From Bradyrhizobium sp. ISRA430 (GTDB lineage: Bacteria > Pseudomonadota > Alphaproteobacteria > Rhizobiales > Xanthobacteraceae), in the NCBI RefSeq assembly GCF_029909975.1, contig NZ_CP094516.1, positions 5,518,001-5,582,000 on the forward strand: DNA of 64,000 nt, read 5' to 3'. A program made the position numbers and the translations under genes. Below are positions 882 to 7,997 of this stretch, piece after piece (position 1 is the first letter of the stretch; every line of letters begins with the position of its first letter). The notes under the pieces are model-generated. The model saw only the letters and a list, made by a program, of their open reading frames with translations, was not told where the DNA came from and ran no database searches.

Positions 882-1116
882 GCAATCAGGCCATCACCGC
901 AGCGGGGGATCGCCGCTGGCGCGCTTCTTGGCGAGGTGGGCCGGCATTCTGGCTAGATGCGATTCCGCGCAGTGATGGCGATGGCGCAGCTTGAGGCCTT
1001 GGGCAGCCAATCCGCCATGCATGAGGGCGTCTCCTAGTCCCAATCGTCTGCTTCTGTAGGGATTCCAGTCATATCAACTGCTCACGCTCCGGCTCGGGGC
1101 GAGTTCTTTTTATTTA

Positions 1117-1148
1117 TTCTAATTCTAAGCTGGAGTGATTCTAGTCAC
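1117..1148. promoter_or_regulatory. CRP-like site and TTCTAA direct repeat upstream of porin operon
   Basis: An AT-rich patch in otherwise GC-rich DNA carries two abutting TTCTAA hexamers (1117-1128). It is followed by GTGATTCTAGTCAC (1135-1148), which fits the CRP-type pattern GTGA-N6-TCAC. The site ends 79 bases before the preferred porin start. TTCTAA resembles one half of the Irr/ICE iron box of rhizobia, but no inverted TTAGAA partner is present, so that link is weak. Confidence 0.4.
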
Positions 1149-1227: not shown

Positions 1228-2868
1228 ATGTCACTGCACGTTTCCGCTGACCCGTTTGCATTTCGATTCGAACGCCGATGCCCCAGCCGATCAGCTCTGC
1301 TGGCGGCGACCGCGATATCGTTCTTGAGTTCTAGTGGAGCTCTTGCAGCGGATGGTGACGCGAACGCCGCGTTGCTGAAGAAGCTCGAGAAGATGGAGCA
1401 GCGCATCCAGCAGCTCGAATCCGAGCTGAAGCAGAAGCAGGATCGCCCGGCCGCTGATGCAGACGCAAAGCGGGCGGCCAAAACGGCATCGCTGACGAGC
1501 GCCAATGCGCCCGCGCCGTCCGCCGAAGCAAAGGACGCGCCAGCCAAGCCTGAGAACCATAAGCCCGAAGCCCAACCGTCCGAGAAATCGGCCAAGTCGA
1601 AGTCGAAAGACTCCATCCCTCTACCCCCACCGCCGTCAGCGTCGGACAAACCGATCCTCGGGCTGTCGGATTCTCCGGTCTCCGGTCTCAGCATCGGGGC
1701 ATATGGTGAGATCAACTTCGGTACCATGCAAAATCCTGCTGCCGGCGGCCAGTGGCAGAAGGGTTTTGACGCGGCCAGGTTCGTCCTCCTGCCCACCTAT
1801 GCGATCACCTCGAACATCATCTTCAATGCGGAAATCGAGTTCGAGCACGCGGGCTCTGGATTTGACAACGACGACAAGCTGCACGGCACTGCCGAGATCG
1901 AGCAGCTCTGGGTCGACTTCAAGATCATCGACCAGTTCAACTGGCGTTCGCCGGGCATTGATCTCGTGCCGATCGGCTACATCAATCAGCATCACGAACC
2001 CACGCAATATTACAGCGTGCTCCGGCCCGCACTCTACAACGGCCTCATTCCGTCGACCTGGAAGGTTCCATCCACCAGCGTCTATGGGACGATCACCGAG
2101 GATCTCAAATATCAGGTCATGGTCAGCACCAGTAACGAGGATTTTGGCGACTCCTTCGACAATCGCACTGAGGCAAAGACTGTCCCGCTTCCCGGGACGG
2201 CGTACATCGCCGGCATCGACGGCGTAACCGCGCTCGCATTCTCCAGGCCCCCGCTCGGCGACTTCCAGCAACTCAACAACGCCACGGCCGTGTCCGGCCG
2301 GCTCGACTTTACGCCGACATTCTGGCCAGGATTCGCCGGAAGCGTCAGCGCCTATTTCTCACCGAACACGACGCCGCGAGGCGCGCATGACGATTTCGGT
2401 AACTTCCTCGGCAGGTCCAGTCTCGCAATGTTTGACGCCGAATTCCGCTATAGGGTGCCCGACACGGGTCTTGAGTTTCGCGGTGAATATGTCCGCGCCG
2501 ATTTCGGGCACCCGGAAAACCTGCGCGCCAACAACGACTCGGATCCGACCAACAATGTCGGCAAGTCGATGTACGGCTATTCCGGCGAGATTGCCTATCA
2601 TGTCCCGCTAGGCACGATTCTCAACAGCGAGTGGGAGGCTGTGCCGTTCTACCGCTACACCTATCAGAACCTGCAGACCGGCGGCTTCGCGGGAACCGAT
2701 GCCAATCTGCCGACCGGTCAGGGTCAGCGGCAGTATCACACGGCCGGTTTTGCGGTGTTTCCATCGCCGAAGGTCGTGCTCAAGGCAACCTATCAGCATG
2801 TGATCGACAAGAGCGCCACGGGCGCGCTTTCGGATTCGTTCCTCGGCGGCGTCGGCTTCTTCTTTTGA
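1228..2868 (+). CDS. Outer-membrane porin with N-terminal coiled coil
   Basis: A predicted 546-residue trimeric-type porin of the outer membrane. The N-terminus has a signal peptide (SALLAATAISFLSSSGALA, cut near residue 40). A short coiled coil follows (about residues 48-71, LLKKLEKMEQRIQQLESEL), then a Lys/Pro/Ala-rich periplasmic linker to ~150. The rest is alternating beta-strand sequence (GLSIGAYGEINFG onward) and the chain ends in an aromatic run, GVGFFF, as beta-barrel proteins do. The layout resembles DcaP-like and phosphate-selective-type porins; the substrate cannot be told. The ATG at 1228 follows a GGGGG tract. In-frame starts at 1204 and 1135 (GTG) are less likely, since 1135 lies inside the CRP-like palindrome. 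It heads an operon with the FMN-binding protein, ApbE and a cytochrome b-like protein. Confidence 0.85.
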   Translation: MSLHVSADPFAFRFERRCPSRSALLAATAISFLSSSGALAADGDANAALLKKLEKMEQRIQQLESELKQKQDRPAADADAKRAAKTASLTSANAPAPSAEAKDAPAKPENHKPEAQPSEKSAKSKSKDSIPLPPPPSASDKPILGLSDSPVSGLSIGAYGEINFGTMQNPAAGGQWQKGFDAARFVLLPTYAITSNIIFNAEIEFEHAGSGFDNDDKLHGTAEIEQLWVDFKIIDQFNWRSPGIDLVPIGYINQHHEPTQYYSVLRPALYNGLIPSTWKVPSTSVYGTITEDLKYQVMVSTSNEDFGDSFDNRTEAKTVPLPGTAYIAGIDGVTALAFSRPPLGDFQQLNNATAVSGRLDFTPTFWPGFAGSVSAYFSPNTTPRGAHDDFGNFLGRSSLAMFDAEFRYRVPDTGLEFRGEYVRADFGHPENLRANNDSDPTNNVGKSMYGYSGEIAYHVPLGTILNSEWEAVPFYRYTYQNLQTGGFAGTDANLPTGQGQRQYHTAGFAVFPSPKVVLKATYQHVIDKSATGALSDSFLGGVGFFF

Positions 2869-2932
2869 TGCCGACAGGGTCGCCTAGGATATCGCTGCAA
2901 GACCTGATGACACGACCAGGAGCGAGGTGACT

Positions 2933-3403
2933 ATGAATTGGGTTCGATACACCCTGCCGGCGGCAGCGATCTTGTCTGCCGCCTCTCCCGCCTATGCCGT
3001 TCGGTATCTGTCGATCGAGGACGCGCAGAAGGCGGCATTTCCGTCCGCAACGCATTTTTCCGAGGTCCAGGCGGGCCGGGTCTGGAAAGCCGAGGCCGGC
3101 GGCAAGGTTGTCGGCTTCTTCGTGTTCGACCGGGTCGTCGGCAAGCACCTTTTCATCGACTACGCAGTGGCGCTGACCCCGGCGGGTGCCGTCCACAGAG
3201 TCGAGATCCTGGAATATCGGGAATCCTATGGCGGCGAAATCAGGAGCCCGAGCTGGCTCGCACAGTTCGTCGGTAAGACCAGCGGCAGTGCGCTCAAGAT
3301 CAACGGCGATATCAGGAACATCGCCGGCGCGACGCTGTCGTCGACCCATGTTACCGAAGGCGTGAAAAGAATACTGGCGGCTTATGGCAATCGCATCCGA
3401 TAG
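2933..3403 (+). CDS. Periplasmic FMN-binding-domain protein, predicted flavinylation target
   Basis: A 156-residue exported protein with a Sec signal peptide (MNWVRYTLPAAAILSAASPAYA). The body is an FMN_bind domain related to NqrC and RnfG: VVGFFVFDRVVGKH, a hydrophobic strand region, then the flavin attachment motif AGATLSS near the C-terminus. In this family ApbE attaches FMN through a phosphoester to the Thr of (S/A)GAT, here Thr134. The ATG at 2933 is preferred over a GTG at 2927 because AGCGAGG sits 5-6 bases upstream. The gene overlaps apbE by 20 bases, which suggests coupled translation of enzyme and substrate. The expected role is a periplasmic one- or two-electron carrier between the membrane cytochrome and an acceptor. 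Confidence 0.85.
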   Translation: MNWVRYTLPAAAILSAASPAYAVRYLSIEDAQKAAFPSATHFSEVQAGRVWKAEAGGKVVGFFVFDRVVGKHLFIDYAVALTPAGAVHRVEILEYRESYGGEIRSPSWLAQFVGKTSGSALKINGDIRNIAGATLSSTHVTEGVKRILAAYGNRIR

Positions 3404-4295
3404 AATCCGTCGCGCAAGGCCACTGCTCGGCACCTTCGTGGAGATCGAGGTTGCGGGCGCTCGCAGATCCGACCTGGACGGTGCCATCGACGCCGCATTC
3501 GATGCCATTGCGCAAGTGCATAGGCTGATGAGCTTTCATGAGCCGGATAGCGACGTCAGCCGGCTCAACCGCGAAGCCGGCATTCGTCCGCTGAATATAC
3601 ATGCGTGGACGTTCGAAGTGCTCAAGACCGCCGTTGAGCTGCATCGCCGCTCCGGCGGGCTTTTTGATATCACGATCGCACCGGCGCTGCAGACCATGGG
3701 GTTGCTGCCGCTTCTGAAGGGTCAGCCGGTGGCGGCGCCGATTGGGCGCCCCACCGACGCGATTGAGCTGCTTCCGGACCAAGAGGTTCGCTTTCGATCG
3801 ACCGAAGTCACGATTGACCTTGGTGGCATAGCGAAGGGCTTTGCCGTCGACCGCGCCGTTGCCGCGCTGCGCGATTTTGGCATTCCAGCCGGCATGGTGA
3901 ACGCCGGTGGCGACCTTCGGGCCTTTGGCACGGAGTCGCACGCGGTTCACGTCCGCGATCCCCGCGGTCCCGGCCGATCGATCTGCCGCATCGATGTGGC
4001 CGACGAAGCGCTGGCCTCAACGGCGCGCCGCGTCGAGCTGTTCGACAGCAGTGAGCCGGGCTGTTCGGTGGTGATTGATCCCGCAACTCAGAGGCCGGCA
4101 AGCCTGATCGACGGCGTCACGGTTCGCGCGCCCTCCTGCATGGTTGCCGACGGTTTGACCAAGATCGTCATGATCTCCGGGACGGATGCGGGCAAACTGC
4201 TCGAATGTTACCAGGCCGGCGCCTTGTTGATCTCGGCCGACGGCGACGTTCAGATCACCTCCGACTGGCAGCACGCGGTGCACCTTGCGGCTTAG
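3384..4295 (+). CDS. apbE: FAD:protein FMN transferase (ApbE family)
   Basis: This enzyme transfers FMN from FAD to a Thr of the partner protein. Family features visible: RARPLLGTFVEI at the N-terminus, SFHEPDSDVSRLN near 50-62, DLGGIAKGFAVD near 146-156 and the NAGGD loop near 173-177. At 303 residues it is a complete domain. The frame has a stop at 3363, so the ATG at 3384 is the first usable start. The resulting N-terminus is charged and shows no signal peptide or lipobox, unlike most ApbE proteins, which are exported. It overlaps the FMN-binding gene upstream by 20 bases and the cytochrome b-like gene downstream by 11, marking a tight operon. Confidence 0.93.
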   Translation: MAIASDRIRRARPLLGTFVEIEVAGARRSDLDGAIDAAFDAIAQVHRLMSFHEPDSDVSRLNREAGIRPLNIHAWTFEVLKTAVELHRRSGGLFDITIAPALQTMGLLPLLKGQPVAAPIGRPTDAIELLPDQEVRFRSTEVTIDLGGIAKGFAVDRAVAALRDFGIPAGMVNAGGDLRAFGTESHAVHVRDPRGPGRSICRIDVADEALASTARRVELFDSSEPGCSVVIDPATQRPASLIDGVTVRAPSCMVADGLTKIVMISGTDAGKLLECYQAGALLISADGDVQITSDWQHAVHLAA

Positions 4296-4704
4296 AACAT
4301 CGTTTCGCTACTCGCTCTACGCGGCGTTCGCGGCGCTGTTTCTGACCGGCGCCGGTTGGCTCGCGGCCGACTGGCAGAAGGACGTTGCCGGCGACGATAT
4401 CTGGCAGCAGATCGCGGCCAACATGCTGATGGTCCATGGCGGCATCGCGATGCTGGCGCTGTTGCTGCTGGGCGCCCTCGTTCCGGTGCACCTGCGGCGA
4501 TCGTGGCGAGGCGGCAAGAATCTCGTTTCCGGATCGGTCATGGCGGCGTTCAATGCGGTCCTGATCGCGACCGCATTCGGGCTCTATTATCTGGGATCGG
4601 AAGCGGTACGGCCCTGGATGAGCTGGATCCACCTGGGCACCGGATTCTCGTTGGCCCTGATGCTTCCGCTTCATATCTGGCTGGGTCGACGGGAGTCGCG
4701 ATAG
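4285..4704 (+). CDS. Four-helix membrane protein, probable dihaem cytochrome b-like electron conduit
   Basis: A 139-residue integral membrane protein. Hydrophobic segments lie at about 10-27, 46-66, 81-103 and 113-132. Helix 2 carries His51 and His69; helix 4 carries His116 and His130. With the N-terminus in the cytoplasm, His51 and His116 both lie near the periplasmic face and His69 and His130 near the cytoplasmic face. That is the arrangement expected for two b haems stacked across the membrane. It starts at a TTG overlapping the end of apbE. The family resembles small cytochrome b / DUF4405-type proteins; the exact name is uncertain. It probably passes electrons from quinol or a cytoplasmic donor to the flavinylated partner. 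Confidence 0.75.
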   Translation: MRLRTSFRYSLYAAFAALFLTGAGWLAADWQKDVAGDDIWQQIAANMLMVHGGIAMLALLLLGALVPVHLRRSWRGGKNLVSGSVMAAFNAVLIATAFGLYYLGSEAVRPWMSWIHLGTGFSLALMLPLHIWLGRRESR

Positions 4705-4721: not shown

Positions 4722-5399
4722 CTATTGCAGCGGCGGATCGCCCGAGGTGCGCTTCTTGGCGAGATCCATCTCGGTCACCGCGATCAGGATTTCGGCGCGG
4801 GTCTTCAGGTCCGGCGCCTCCAACATGGCCTGCTTCTCGGCCGGGCCATAGGGCGACATCATTGCCAGCGCATTGACGAGGGCCTCATTGGGCGCGCTCT
4901 CGACGCCCTCCCAATCGACCTTGAGGTTGTTGGCCTTCAAAAAGTCCGCCAGTGCCGCGAGCAGCGCCTCGCGATTGACGTCATCCTCGCCCTTGCGGGC
5001 GGTGAAGTCGTCGGCGAACGCGAAGAAATCCACCTTGCACTGCCGGTAGGCCGTGAGCACGTCGAGCTCCTCGACCACCTTGAAGCGCGCAATGCCGGTG
5101 AGCTCGAGGATGTAGCGGCCGTCGCCGGATTCGGCGAGCTGGGTGATGCGGCCGACGCAGCCGACACGGAACAGCACCGGCTTGTCGGCATTCTTCGGCG
5201 AATGCGCCACGTCCGGCTGGATCATGCCGATCAGGCGATGGCCGTCGCGCAAGGCGTCGTCGACCATCGCGAGGTAGCGCGGCTCGAAGATGTTGAGCGG
5301 CATCTGGCCGCGCGGCAACAACAGCGCGCCGGGCAGGGGAAACACCGGGATGATCTCCGGAAGGTCCGCGGGCCCGCGATATTCGATATTGATCGGCAT
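4722..5399 (-). CDS. LON peptidase substrate-binding domain protein
   Basis: A 225-residue protein made only of the LON N-terminal (substrate-binding) domain, without the AAA+ or protease parts. It opens with the typical strand pattern IIPVFPLPGALLLPRGQMPLNIFEPRYLAMVDDAL, then the GCVGRI and ELTGIARF segments. The cellular role of these stand-alone proteins in alphaproteobacteria is not established. It lies 30 bases downstream of the thioredoxin-TPR gene on the same strand, so the two are probably co-transcribed, which fits a shared role in protein quality control. Confidence 0.9.
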   Translation of the reverse strand: MPINIEYRGPADLPEIIPVFPLPGALLLPRGQMPLNIFEPRYLAMVDDALRDGHRLIGMIQPDVAHSPKNADKPVLFRVGCVGRITQLAESGDGRYILELTGIARFKVVEELDVLTAYRQCKVDFFAFADDFTARKGEDDVNREALLAALADFLKANNLKVDWEGVESAPNEALVNALAMMSPYGPAEKQAMLEAPDLKTRAEILIAVTEMDLAKKRTSGDPPLQ

Positions 5400-5429
5400 C
5401 TTGCCCGGTCCCCGCTCGCCGGCTGGCGC

Positions 5430-6353
5430 CTATGAAAACAGGATTGTCGATAAGCGCTTTCGTCCCTCGACGGTCGCATCGTCGGTGCTGCCCCAGGCCT
5501 CGAAGAACTGCACGAGCTGCTTGCGGGCGCCGTCATCGTTCCATTTGCGGTCGCGCTTGACGATATCGAGGAGCTGGTCCGTGGCGGCCGCGCGATTGCC
5601 TTGCGCATTGAGGGCCGTCGCAAGGTCGAATCGTGCCTGATGATCGAGCGGGTTTGCGGCGACTTTCTGTTCCAGCTCGGCGATCGGCCCGAGCGACTTG
5701 GCCTGCTCGGCGAGATCGATCGCGGCCTGCACGGCCTTTACCGCGGGCTCGTTGCGCTTGGATTCCGGGACCATGGCGAGCGTCTGCTTGGCCTGCTCCA
5801 TGGCGCCGGACACGGCGTAGCACTTCGCGAGCCCGGCAAGGGCCGCGATGTTCGTCGAATCATGATGCAGCGCCTCGGCATAAATCTGCGCCGCCGCCGC
5901 CGCGTCGCCCTCCGCGAGCACCGCCTCGGCCTCCTTCACGATCTCGTCGACATTGACCTCGCCTGGCGCGGTCACGCCCTTGGTCAGCCGCTCGATGAAG
6001 GCGTTGACCTGGCTCTCCGGCACCGCGCCCATGAAACCGTCGGCCGGCTGGCCGTTGACGAAGGCAATCACGGCAGGGATCGACTGGATGCCCATCTGGC
6101 CCGGGATCGCCGGATGCTGGTCGATGTTCATCTTGACCAGCTTGACCTTGCCCTTGGCTGCACGGACCGCCTTTTCCAGCACGGGGGTGAGCTGGCGGCA
6201 GGGGCCGCACCATTCCGCCCAGAAATCGATCAGCACCGGTTGGCGCTTCGATTCCTCGATGACGTCCTTCACGAAGGTCTGGGTGGTCGTGTCCTTGATC
6301 AGATCGGCGGCCGCCGGGCCCGCTGCTCCGTTACCCTGGTCGATGATCGTCAC
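5430..6353 (-). CDS. cnoX: Thioredoxin-fold chaperone with TPR domain (CnoX/YbbN family)
   Basis: The N-terminal ~120 residues are a thioredoxin domain with an intact WCGPC motif (FWAEWCGPCRQL). The remainder is a TPR-like helical region (ILVGEGDAAAAAQIYAEAL-type repeats and a second pair near the C-terminus). This matches YbbN/CnoX, which binds unfolding proteins and hands them to GroEL or DnaK. E. coli CnoX lacks the CXXC redox pair, whereas here both cysteines are present, so thiol-disulfide activity is likely. The start is GTG with GAGGGGAT just upstream. It is followed closely by the LON-domain gene. Confidence 0.9.
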   Translation of the reverse strand: MTIIDQGNGAAGPAAADLIKDTTTQTFVKDVIEESKRQPVLIDFWAEWCGPCRQLTPVLEKAVRAAKGKVKLVKMNIDQHPAIPGQMGIQSIPAVIAFVNGQPADGFMGAVPESQVNAFIERLTKGVTAPGEVNVDEIVKEAEAVLAEGDAAAAAQIYAEALHHDSTNIAALAGLAKCYAVSGAMEQAKQTLAMVPESKRNEPAVKAVQAAIDLAEQAKSLGPIAELEQKVAANPLDHQARFDLATALNAQGNRAAATDQLLDIVKRDRKWNDDGARKQLVQFFEAWGSTDDATVEGRKRLSTILFS

Positions 6354-6629
6354 GGGATCCCCTCGTCTGATGTCTGGAATGGCGGCTCTTTAGCATGTTG
6401 CCAATGCCGATGCCTTGCTGTCGGCTCCTAAAATTGGGCCGTGACGGCCGAATTTCAATCCACAGGCGTCGATTCGGCGGTTCCTGGCCGTTTCGGGTCG
6501 ATTCGACCGGGATTGGGGGTCTATGTGGGGCTCCAAATGCGAATCTATGCCGCCGGTAGCTGTTGCATTCGGCTCCCGCTTTTGGCATACGACAGCCGTT
6601 GCCGGCGCGTCATGCGACCGACACAGGAT

Positions 6630-6704
<75 letters not shown>

Positions 6705-6781
6705 ATCTTTCCCAGAGCATCCAGCCAAACCGGCACGGATCGTGGTTCGCCAGCGCCGCTGGCGGCTGGTCGGGATTTGCA

Positions 6782-7768
6782 ATGACAATACTGGTCACGG
6801 GCAGCGCAGGCCACCTCGGGGAGGCCATCGTCAGGACGTTGCGGGGGCGCGGTTCTACTGTGCATGGGGTTGATTTGAAGAAATCAGCCTTCACCGATGC
6901 GGTCGGTTCCATTGTCGATCCCGGCTTCGTCCGAAGCCAGATGGACGGCGTCACCGCCGTCATCCACACCGCGACGCTGCACAAGCCGCATGTGGCGACT
7001 CACGCCAAGCAGGATTTCATCGACACCAACGTCACCGGCACGCTCAACCTGCTCGAGGCGGCCGTTGCCGCCGGCGTGCGCAGCTTCGTCTTCACCAGCA
7101 CCACCAGCGCATTCGGCTCGCAGCTCCGGCCGGGGGCGGGAGAGGCTGCGGTGTGGGTCACCGAGCATCTGCCGTCGGTGCCGAAGAACATCTACGGCAC
7201 GACAAAACTGATGGCCGAGAACCTGTGCGAGCTGTTCTTCCGCGAGCATCGTCTTCCGGTCCTCATCTTGAGGACGTCCCGCTTCTTTCCCGAAGACGAT
7301 GACGATCCCGCGCTGCGGGCGGCTTACGCGCAGGAGAACGCGCAGGCCAACGAGCTGCTCTATCGCCGGCTGGATATAGCGGATGCCGTGAGCGCCCATC
7401 TGCTCGCGAGCGAGAAGGCCGCCGCGATCGGCTTCGCGCGCTACATCGTCTCGGCCACGAGCCCGTTCGAGCCGCACCATGTCGCAGCACTGGCCCGTGA
7501 CGCGGCCGGCGTGGTGCGCGCGCTCTATCCCGATTGCGAGCAGCTCTTCGCCGCGCGTGGCTGGCGCCTGTTTCCGGCGATCGACCGCGTCTACGTCAAC
7601 GAGCGCGCGCGCCGTGAACTCGGCTGGCGGCCCGAATTCGATTTTGCCCATGTCCTCAACTGCCTTCGCGATGGCATGGACTTTCGCAGCGCGCTGGCGC
7701 GCGAGGTCGGATCGAAGGGCTATCATGAAACGGTGTTTGCGGATGGACCGTATCCCGTCTTGTCGTAG
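6782..7768 (+). CDS. NAD(P)-dependent epimerase/dehydratase (extended SDR)
   Basis: A 328-residue extended short-chain dehydrogenase. It opens with a Rossmann strand and the glycine motif TGSAGHLG. The family DVNVTGTLNLLEAA-like stretch appears as DTNVTGTLNLLEAA, then catalytic Ser/Thr in TSTTSAFGS and the YGTTK pair that stands for YxxxK. The substrate is probably a nucleotide sugar or similar but cannot be deduced. The frame stays open leftward through the tRNA-Gly, so the ATG at 6782 directly before MTILVTGSAG is the correct start. The ribosome-binding site is weak. It is a single gene between the tRNA and the PQQ dehydrogenase. Confidence 0.88.
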   Translation: MTILVTGSAGHLGEAIVRTLRGRGSTVHGVDLKKSAFTDAVGSIVDPGFVRSQMDGVTAVIHTATLHKPHVATHAKQDFIDTNVTGTLNLLEAAVAAGVRSFVFTSTTSAFGSQLRPGAGEAAVWVTEHLPSVPKNIYGTTKLMAENLCELFFREHRLPVLILRTSRFFPEDDDDPALRAAYAQENAQANELLYRRLDIADAVSAHLLASEKAAAIGFARYIVSATSPFEPHHVAALARDAAGVVRALYPDCEQLFAARGWRLFPAIDRVYVNERARRELGWRPEFDFAHVLNCLRDGMDFRSALAREVGSKGYHETVFADGPYPVLS

Positions 7769-7997
7769 ATCGTCTGTTTGATTCCGCGTTGCAGCGAGGA
7801 CGTTGTCACAGCGTTACTTGTGATTCCGTCTCAATTTTGATCGAGCCCGATTGCAGCGCGCGTGCCGCGCTTCTCAGTGTTCGCAGATGTGCTAACCTTT
7901 TTCGGTCTGATCTCTCGACAGACTCCGAACTTCGCCTACCCGACTAGCAAAACAAAATAATGCGCAGCCTGGACGGCTGCCTTAGGGGAGTGACGCG

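Follow-up and report, generated by a model that had tools for sequence, protein, structure and literature searches.

What could a compact operon of Bradyrhizobium sp. ISRA430 do for the cell, if it places an outer-membrane porin ahead of a flavin carrier, a flavin transferase and a cytochrome b-like protein? The operon lies at positions 1228 to 4704 of the stretch given above, whose full 64,000 nucleotides we call the window. The host genome is 8.56 Mb in one contig, and the closest named relatives of the window are Bradyrhizobium (28 loci). With confidence a little better than even, we read the operon as a flavin-based module for electron export under iron regulation, which would act as a quinol-fed periplasmic ferric reductase. 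Iron appears to be the best-supported theme, judged from the sequence signals of an enrichment of Fur boxes upstream of related operons and of iron genes beside distant versions. A preliminary description of this DNA had proposed a chain from b haems through an envelope flavin to a small acceptor such as a ferric complex, and our analysis supports that type of chain, with these two signals speaking for iron as its likeliest acceptor.

The operon and the proposed pathway

The features concerned are the following.

1228..2868, + strand: probable outer-membrane porin of the OprO/P type, with a barrel that starts near residue 150 and, by eye, a signal peptide
2933..3403, + strand: FMN_bind protein, RnfG-like (PF04205); short signal peptide ending in AYA, by eye
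3332..3334, + strand: codon of Thr134 of the FMN_bind protein, predicted attachment site of flavin mononucleotide (FMN) in NIAGATLSS, from conservation of the acceptor Thr
3384..4295, + strand: ApbE-family flavin adenine dinucleotide:protein FMN transferase (PF02424), with Val at the catalytic His position and the signature ADGLTK
4285..4704, + strand: four-helix inner-membrane cytochrome b-like protein (DUF4405/b561-like), from AlphaFold2 and the Pfam matches of relatives
4435, 4489, 4630 and 4672, + strand: codons of His51, His69, His116 and His130 of the cytochrome, invariant in the alignment
G000:C1:5941000-5953000, 5304-7995, − strand: L031, another and divergent version of the module from this genome, led by a DUF6662 gene

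The last three open reading frames (ORFs) overlap, by 20 bases (FMN_bind/ApbE) and 11 bases (ApbE/cytochrome). These results confirm the set that had been described before, namely porin, FMN_bind, ApbE and a four-helix protein with two pairs of His, in this order on one strand. The FMN_bind and ApbE products reach their Pfam cut-offs, while the window's porin and cytochrome reach none. At E 0.001 the genome holds two ApbE and two FMN_bind matches, one pair in each of two operons, so that each ApbE has one obvious target. The second copy, L031, shares 51, 42 and 32% identity with the window operon, and its cytochrome matches Ni_hydr_CYTB above the cut-off.

In the proposed pathway, the four-helix protein with two b haems would take up electrons. 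Quinol is their probable source, as the operon has no gene for an NAD(P)H-binding protein. The four-helix protein would pass them to the small periplasmic FMN_bind protein, to which the neighbouring ApbE would attach FMN at Thr134, perhaps before export. The reduced flavin protein would then reduce periplasmic ferric complexes to Fe(II), which a transporter of the inner membrane, with its gene elsewhere, could take up. As a guess, the ferric complex or another small acceptor might enter through the OprO/P-like porin. The haems, the donor, the direction of electron flow, iron as the acceptor, the cargo of the porin, the attachment of FMN and the location of the FMN_bind protein are all parts that we infer.

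Conservation and spread of the gene set

We now turn to the question of whether the gene order is kept beyond close relatives, which the preliminary description had named as a test of its own proposal. Alignment searches with FMN_bind gave matches in 4 of 198 genomes of the family, 6 of 289 of the own class, 14 of 398 of the phylum, 41 of 250 of one order and 14 of 321 of another class, numbers in which some genomes recur, cut-offs differ, weak matches are counted and only the best candidates are scored. Among 72 stretches fetched, 67 hold an FMN_bind ORF (57 strong and 10 weak loci, split at E 1e-30); L062, L067, L087, L095 and L099 fall outside these counts, their FMN_bind ORF having been lost to an overlapping one. 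The order FMN_bind-ApbE-cytochrome is found in 42 of the 57 strong loci, and the other 15 differ in order or miss one or more parts. The full order, with a barrel gene in front, is found in 35 of the 57, in 22 of which the gene next to FMN_bind is DUF6662, presumed to be a barrel. Solimonas soli (L029) is among the named records with the same gene order as the window, and the order persists beyond the window's own class, which leaves the earlier proposal unrefuted on this point. Some loci are near-copies of each other (L048/L049, L063/L064, L062/L068 and L090/L092), which means that P-values over loci come out too small.

The module is also carried by plasmids. An FMN_bind match was found in eight plasmid records, five of them typed as conjugative. 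The gene order was inspected in five of the eight (the Novosphingobium record carries no annotation), and by annotation the four-gene order is present on plasmids of Bradyrhizobium sp. ISRA443, Methylocystis heyeri, Sphingomonas and Ideonella. Of the four products on the Bradyrhizobium plasmid, the porin and the cytochrome carry no annotation beyond that of hypothetical protein. Carriage on plasmids fits the patchy spread of the module. The idea of a module special to rhizobia had to be given up, since it occurs outside the family and the class, and on plasmids.

Iron-related signals in relatives

Of the 74 loci listed, the Fur scan covered 73, the remaining one having too short an upstream stretch; L026, L027 and L031 were included and L003-L025 and L040-L042 left out. 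As controls we used 2122 other windows from the same loci, the later patterns being compared with the first 600 of these. All 73 regions were scanned with each of four Fur patterns. The E. coli Fur box GATAATGATAATCATTATC, with at most 5 mismatches, occurs in 11 of the 73 upstream regions versus 26 of the 2122 control windows; all 11 are among the 43 barrel-first regions, and 8 of the 11 are strong loci. In 17 of the 73 regions, no more than 5 of 100 shuffles matched the box as well. A second, longer form, AAATGAGAATCATTCTCATT, is present in 17 regions (13 strong loci) versus 1 of 600 controls, and a third pattern, AATGANAATNATTNTC, in 19 regions versus 8 of 600. The fourth, ANAATGANAATCATTNTNT, gives a weak signal (23 regions versus 75 of 600 controls). 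Among 1000 permuted palindromes one did better, with 20 loci, and this one itself reads like a Fur box.

The neighbouring genes of some relatives point in the same direction. L055 lies beside genes for FTR1, a cupredoxin, a ferritin-like protein, PF12801 (NapH-like) and OprB, and L110 beside FTR1 and PepSY genes. In L094 a divergent fur gene adjoins the module, and in L026, from a Bradyrhizobium metagenome-assembled genome, a cupredoxin gene lies 37 bases downstream of the cytochrome. In Caulobacter, an ApbE/DUF2271 cluster appears as iron- and Fur-responsive in a table of PMC3751524. The only FTR1 matches of the genome studied here fall in one 668-residue frame (L113/L114, G000:C1:5245470-5246102), far from the operon.

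The chain might instead serve a periplasmic oxidoreductase or a defence against peroxide, with electrons going from quinol through the flavin to a dihaem peroxidase-like or other acceptor. A dihaem cytochrome c peroxidase gene is indeed found upstream of the porin in L078, L082, L083, L088, L090 (CCP_MauG) and L092, and on the Ideonella plasmid. However, no peroxidase gene is nearby in the window or in the other loci clustered with it, and the peroxidase-led operons (the six numbered loci and L120) themselves have the second Fur form ahead of the peroxidase gene in 5 of 7 cases. We regard this scenario as unlikely.

The substrate could also be copper, or another metal or chelate, rather than iron. 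Multicopper oxidase genes adjoin the module in L026, in L027 and on the Methylocystis heyeri plasmid. On the latter (L118), genes for a multicopper oxidase and a ferritin-like protein come after the module, and another copper oxidase lies upstream. Multicopper oxidases also function as ferroxidases, the ferritin-like gene sits on that same plasmid and the Fur boxes point to iron, which makes the copper scenario quite improbable in our judgement.

The upstream region in Bradyrhizobium

The region ahead of the window porin contains one further feature.

1116..1143, + strand: operator-like motif ATTCTAATTCTAA-N5-AG-N2-ATTCTA, with direct TTCTA repeats

It belongs to a conserved block, TTaTTCTAATTCtAA..T.gAG..aTTCtA, about 85-112 bases ahead of the porin start. 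The core TTCTAATTC is present in 18 of the 25 upstream regions compared, including those of the window and of the plasmid copy L117, while L010, L011, L013 and L022 keep the TTCTA repeats without the core. The window version is unique in its genome at up to 3 mismatches. In Bradyrhizobium oropedii (L010), part of the block is tandemly repeated upstream of the porin. Folding of the window's upstream DNA was also considered, and nothing was found there.

TTCTA is the half-site of the palindromic Irr box, TTTAGAANNNTTCTAA. Exact copies of TTTAGAANNNTTCTAA in the same genome precede genes that, by eye, read like bfr and mbfA. The best fit to this box ahead of the window operon has 3 mismatches (3 of 200 shuffles were as good); a near-perfect box is found only in L020 (1 mismatch, 0 of 200 shuffles), and L021-L023 have 2 mismatches. 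Control of the window operon by Irr would be at most a fair guess. An Irr-box-like site with 1 mismatch was also seen at about 5515167 (L038), 2.8 kb before the window; a gene that by eye resembles one for a cytochrome b561 follows this site at about 400 bases.

The carrier and its putative flavin transferase

In a search of the PDB, the FMN_bind profile matches RnfG (7zc6, E 3e-10). All 73 strong loci retain the acceptor Thr, as SGAT (56), AGAT (7), TGAT (4), GGAT (3) and SGST (1), the remaining two motifs being, by eye, TDAT (L075) and SGGT (L091). SGGT is also the motif of the Sphingomonas plasmid copy. Judged by eye, the FMN_bind proteins of the family appear to bear signals, which are twin-arginine-like in L051 (RRQFIK) and L108 (RREFGK) and Sec-like in the others, including the window.

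The transferase is less ordinary. The window ApbE scores 169.2 bits against PF02424 (curated cut-off 25.6), and no signal peptide can be recognised in its N-terminus, MAIASDRIRRARPLLGT. ApbE comes right after FMN_bind in 62 loci. In all of them the first motif is reached after 1-44 residues (median 8), and by eye and hydropathy none of the 62, near-copies included, has a clear signal peptide on ApbE; L063 comes nearest, with a most hydrophobic stretch of 1.68 over 12. The start was taken as that nearest to the FMN_bind stop, and longer in-frame starts exist in some loci. A hidden start with a signal peptide was considered as well and seems unlikely to us; the FMN_bind and ApbE frames share 4 bases (ATGA-type) in many loci.

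In the ApbE alignment of 66 rows, the catalytic Asp is kept in 65 (one is gapped), the Lys of ADALTK in 63, and the other conserved motifs are kept as well. The catalytic triad is Asp-Ser-His according to a review (PMC12052999). The His, whose column we read off the 6nxi alignment together with a sequence motif, is found in 9 of the 66 rows and is Val in the window, a count that is uncertain at this column because five rows carry His one column on. Two of the nine are the exported ApbEs of L110 and L111, distant and FTR1-linked, which by eye have a twin-arginine-like leader and the usual residues. The earlier picture of an ordinary periplasmic ApbE does not hold, then, for a protein without recognisable signal peptide and with Val in place of the catalytic His.

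One may ask whether such a protein works at all. It is conceivable that the ApbE homologue is not an active flavin transferase, and that the FMN_bind protein holds FMN non-covalently or not at all. The loss of the triad His in most members would fit this option, but the Asp and the ADALTK Lys are largely kept, as are the other conserved motifs, and the acceptor Thr is kept throughout. Moreover, replacement of this His by Gly in V. cholerae is given in the same review as a decrease in activity, with loss not stated. This option seems improbable to us.

If ApbE does act on its neighbour, the absence of a recognisable signal peptide means that flavinylation would take place before export, or that ApbE would reach the periplasm by some other route. 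Tentatively, and with clearly less than even confidence, we suggest that these proteins form a distinct, signal-less and mostly His-less ADALTK branch of ApbE that flavinylates the carrier in the cytosol, the pre-loaded carrier then being exported for iron reduction. Cytosolic ApbEs with cytosolic targets do exist (PMC12052999), and the twin-arginine-like motifs of L051 and L108 would suit the export of a folded, FMN-charged protein.

The cytochrome and the porin

AlphaFold2 predicts the cytochrome as four helices (mean predicted local distance difference test score 94.8), and this high-confidence bundle resembles dihaem b cytochromes. The alignment contains the window protein and 53 of 57 eligible relatives, near-copies being left out. 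All 54 sequences have the four His, at spacings of 18 and 14, and it is because of them that two b haems are proposed. Of the 54, 30 match Ni_hydr_CYTB and, at E 0.01, 15 match DUF4405 (PF14358), while the window protein has no PF14358 match. A PDB sequence search with the cytochrome gave no real match, and Foldseek alone found nothing below E 0.001, the best hit being 1kqf.

The E. coli superoxide oxidase is a four-helix dihaem b protein, and as in that enzyme the electrons could be imagined to flow inwards, with periplasmic superoxide, Fe(II) or Cu(I) being oxidised and quinone reduced. We consider this quite improbable.

In the porin, residues 45-71 are a predicted helix (a coiled coil by eye), followed by a low-confidence linker and then the barrel. 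The porin alignment has 34 rows, with 33 of 36 eligible relatives (near-copies left out); 15 of the 34 match Porin_O_P (PF07396), the window porin itself staying below the cut-off. A PDB sequence search with the porin gave no real match. Clusters of Glu and His at residues 202-207 (1831-1848) and 256-258 (1993-2001) are invariant across the 34 porins and form a possible metal or ligand site. The B. diazoefficiens porin bll6888, listed in a microoxia expression table, could not be tied to the window porin.

Assessment of the ferric reductase proposal

Several observations weigh against a ferric reductase under iron control. The second Fur form is absent from 56 of the 73 upstream regions, and no Fur box is seen ahead of the paralog L031 or the Bradyrhizobium locus L026, for which 88 and 91 of 100 shuffles, respectively, fitted as well. 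In Bradyrhizobium itself the signs of iron control are weak, the Irr fit of the window being imperfect and its repeats direct and not palindromic. Iron genes adjoin few modules, and the loci with FTR1 (L055, L110 and L111) all belong to a distant FMN_bind group, because of which they bear on the window by analogy only; L055, in addition, has no ApbE in its stretch. Other modules have dihaem peroxidases or multicopper oxidases as neighbours. The window's own type of porin stands next to FMN_bind in just 13 of the 35 full modules. Finally, the attachment of FMN appears uncertain, as the ApbE has neither a signal peptide nor the usual His.

If the ferric reductase proposal is true, a compact, plasmid-borne and iron-controlled reductase module would join the known flavin-based electron-export systems, and legume symbionts would have a reductive iron route that can be tested. 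It also raises the question of how a signal-less ApbE charges a signal-bearing partner.

Comparison with known systems

In open-access text, supplements apart, we found no paper on the whole four-gene module. The PepSY-like, MsrQ-like and NapH-like flavinylation systems of Meheust et al. 2021 (PMC8238504) likewise cluster apbE with a flavinylated carrier and a haem or FeS membrane protein, and several of them have been linked to iron assimilation. The window operon differs from them in its four-helix His protein, its leading barrel gene and its ApbE without recognisable signal peptide. A word search for 'porin' and 'DUF4405' found neither in the main text of that paper. Those authors retained clusters in which one or more of the target genes carry a signal, which means that clusters of the present kind could be in their data.

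The DUF4405 cytochromes and FezC of Huang et al. 2024 (PMC11334425 / PMC10979944) share with the window operon the co-localisation with apbE in Proteobacteria and four central His, and heme B has been shown for one DUF4405 protein and for FezC. Theirs is a six-helix protein with, in the example given, a flavodoxin partner, whereas the window cytochrome is predicted with four helices and does not itself match DUF4405. RnfG and NqrC have the FMN_bind domain with Thr in [S/A]GAT in common with the carrier, which differs in being small, with a short signal-like start, and no Rnf or Nqr genes were seen in the operon. The cytosolic ApbE of Klebsiella, which serves fumarate reductase (PMC12052999), resembles the window ApbE in having no signal peptide, but its target is cytosolic, while the window partner has a signal-like start. 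The OprP/OprO porins appear to share the barrel fold of the window porin, at 12-13% identity. What sets the window porin apart from them is a predicted helix in its N-terminal part, together with a long linker.

Systems of this kind are already known from the cited texts, both as ApbE-linked carriers accompanied by haem membrane proteins and as DUF4405 cytochromes encoded next to apbE in Proteobacteria. Within the scope of these searches, the new elements are the conserved barrel-containing set, the four-helix cytochrome with its 18/14 His spacing, the signal-less and mostly His-less ApbE and the link to Fur boxes.

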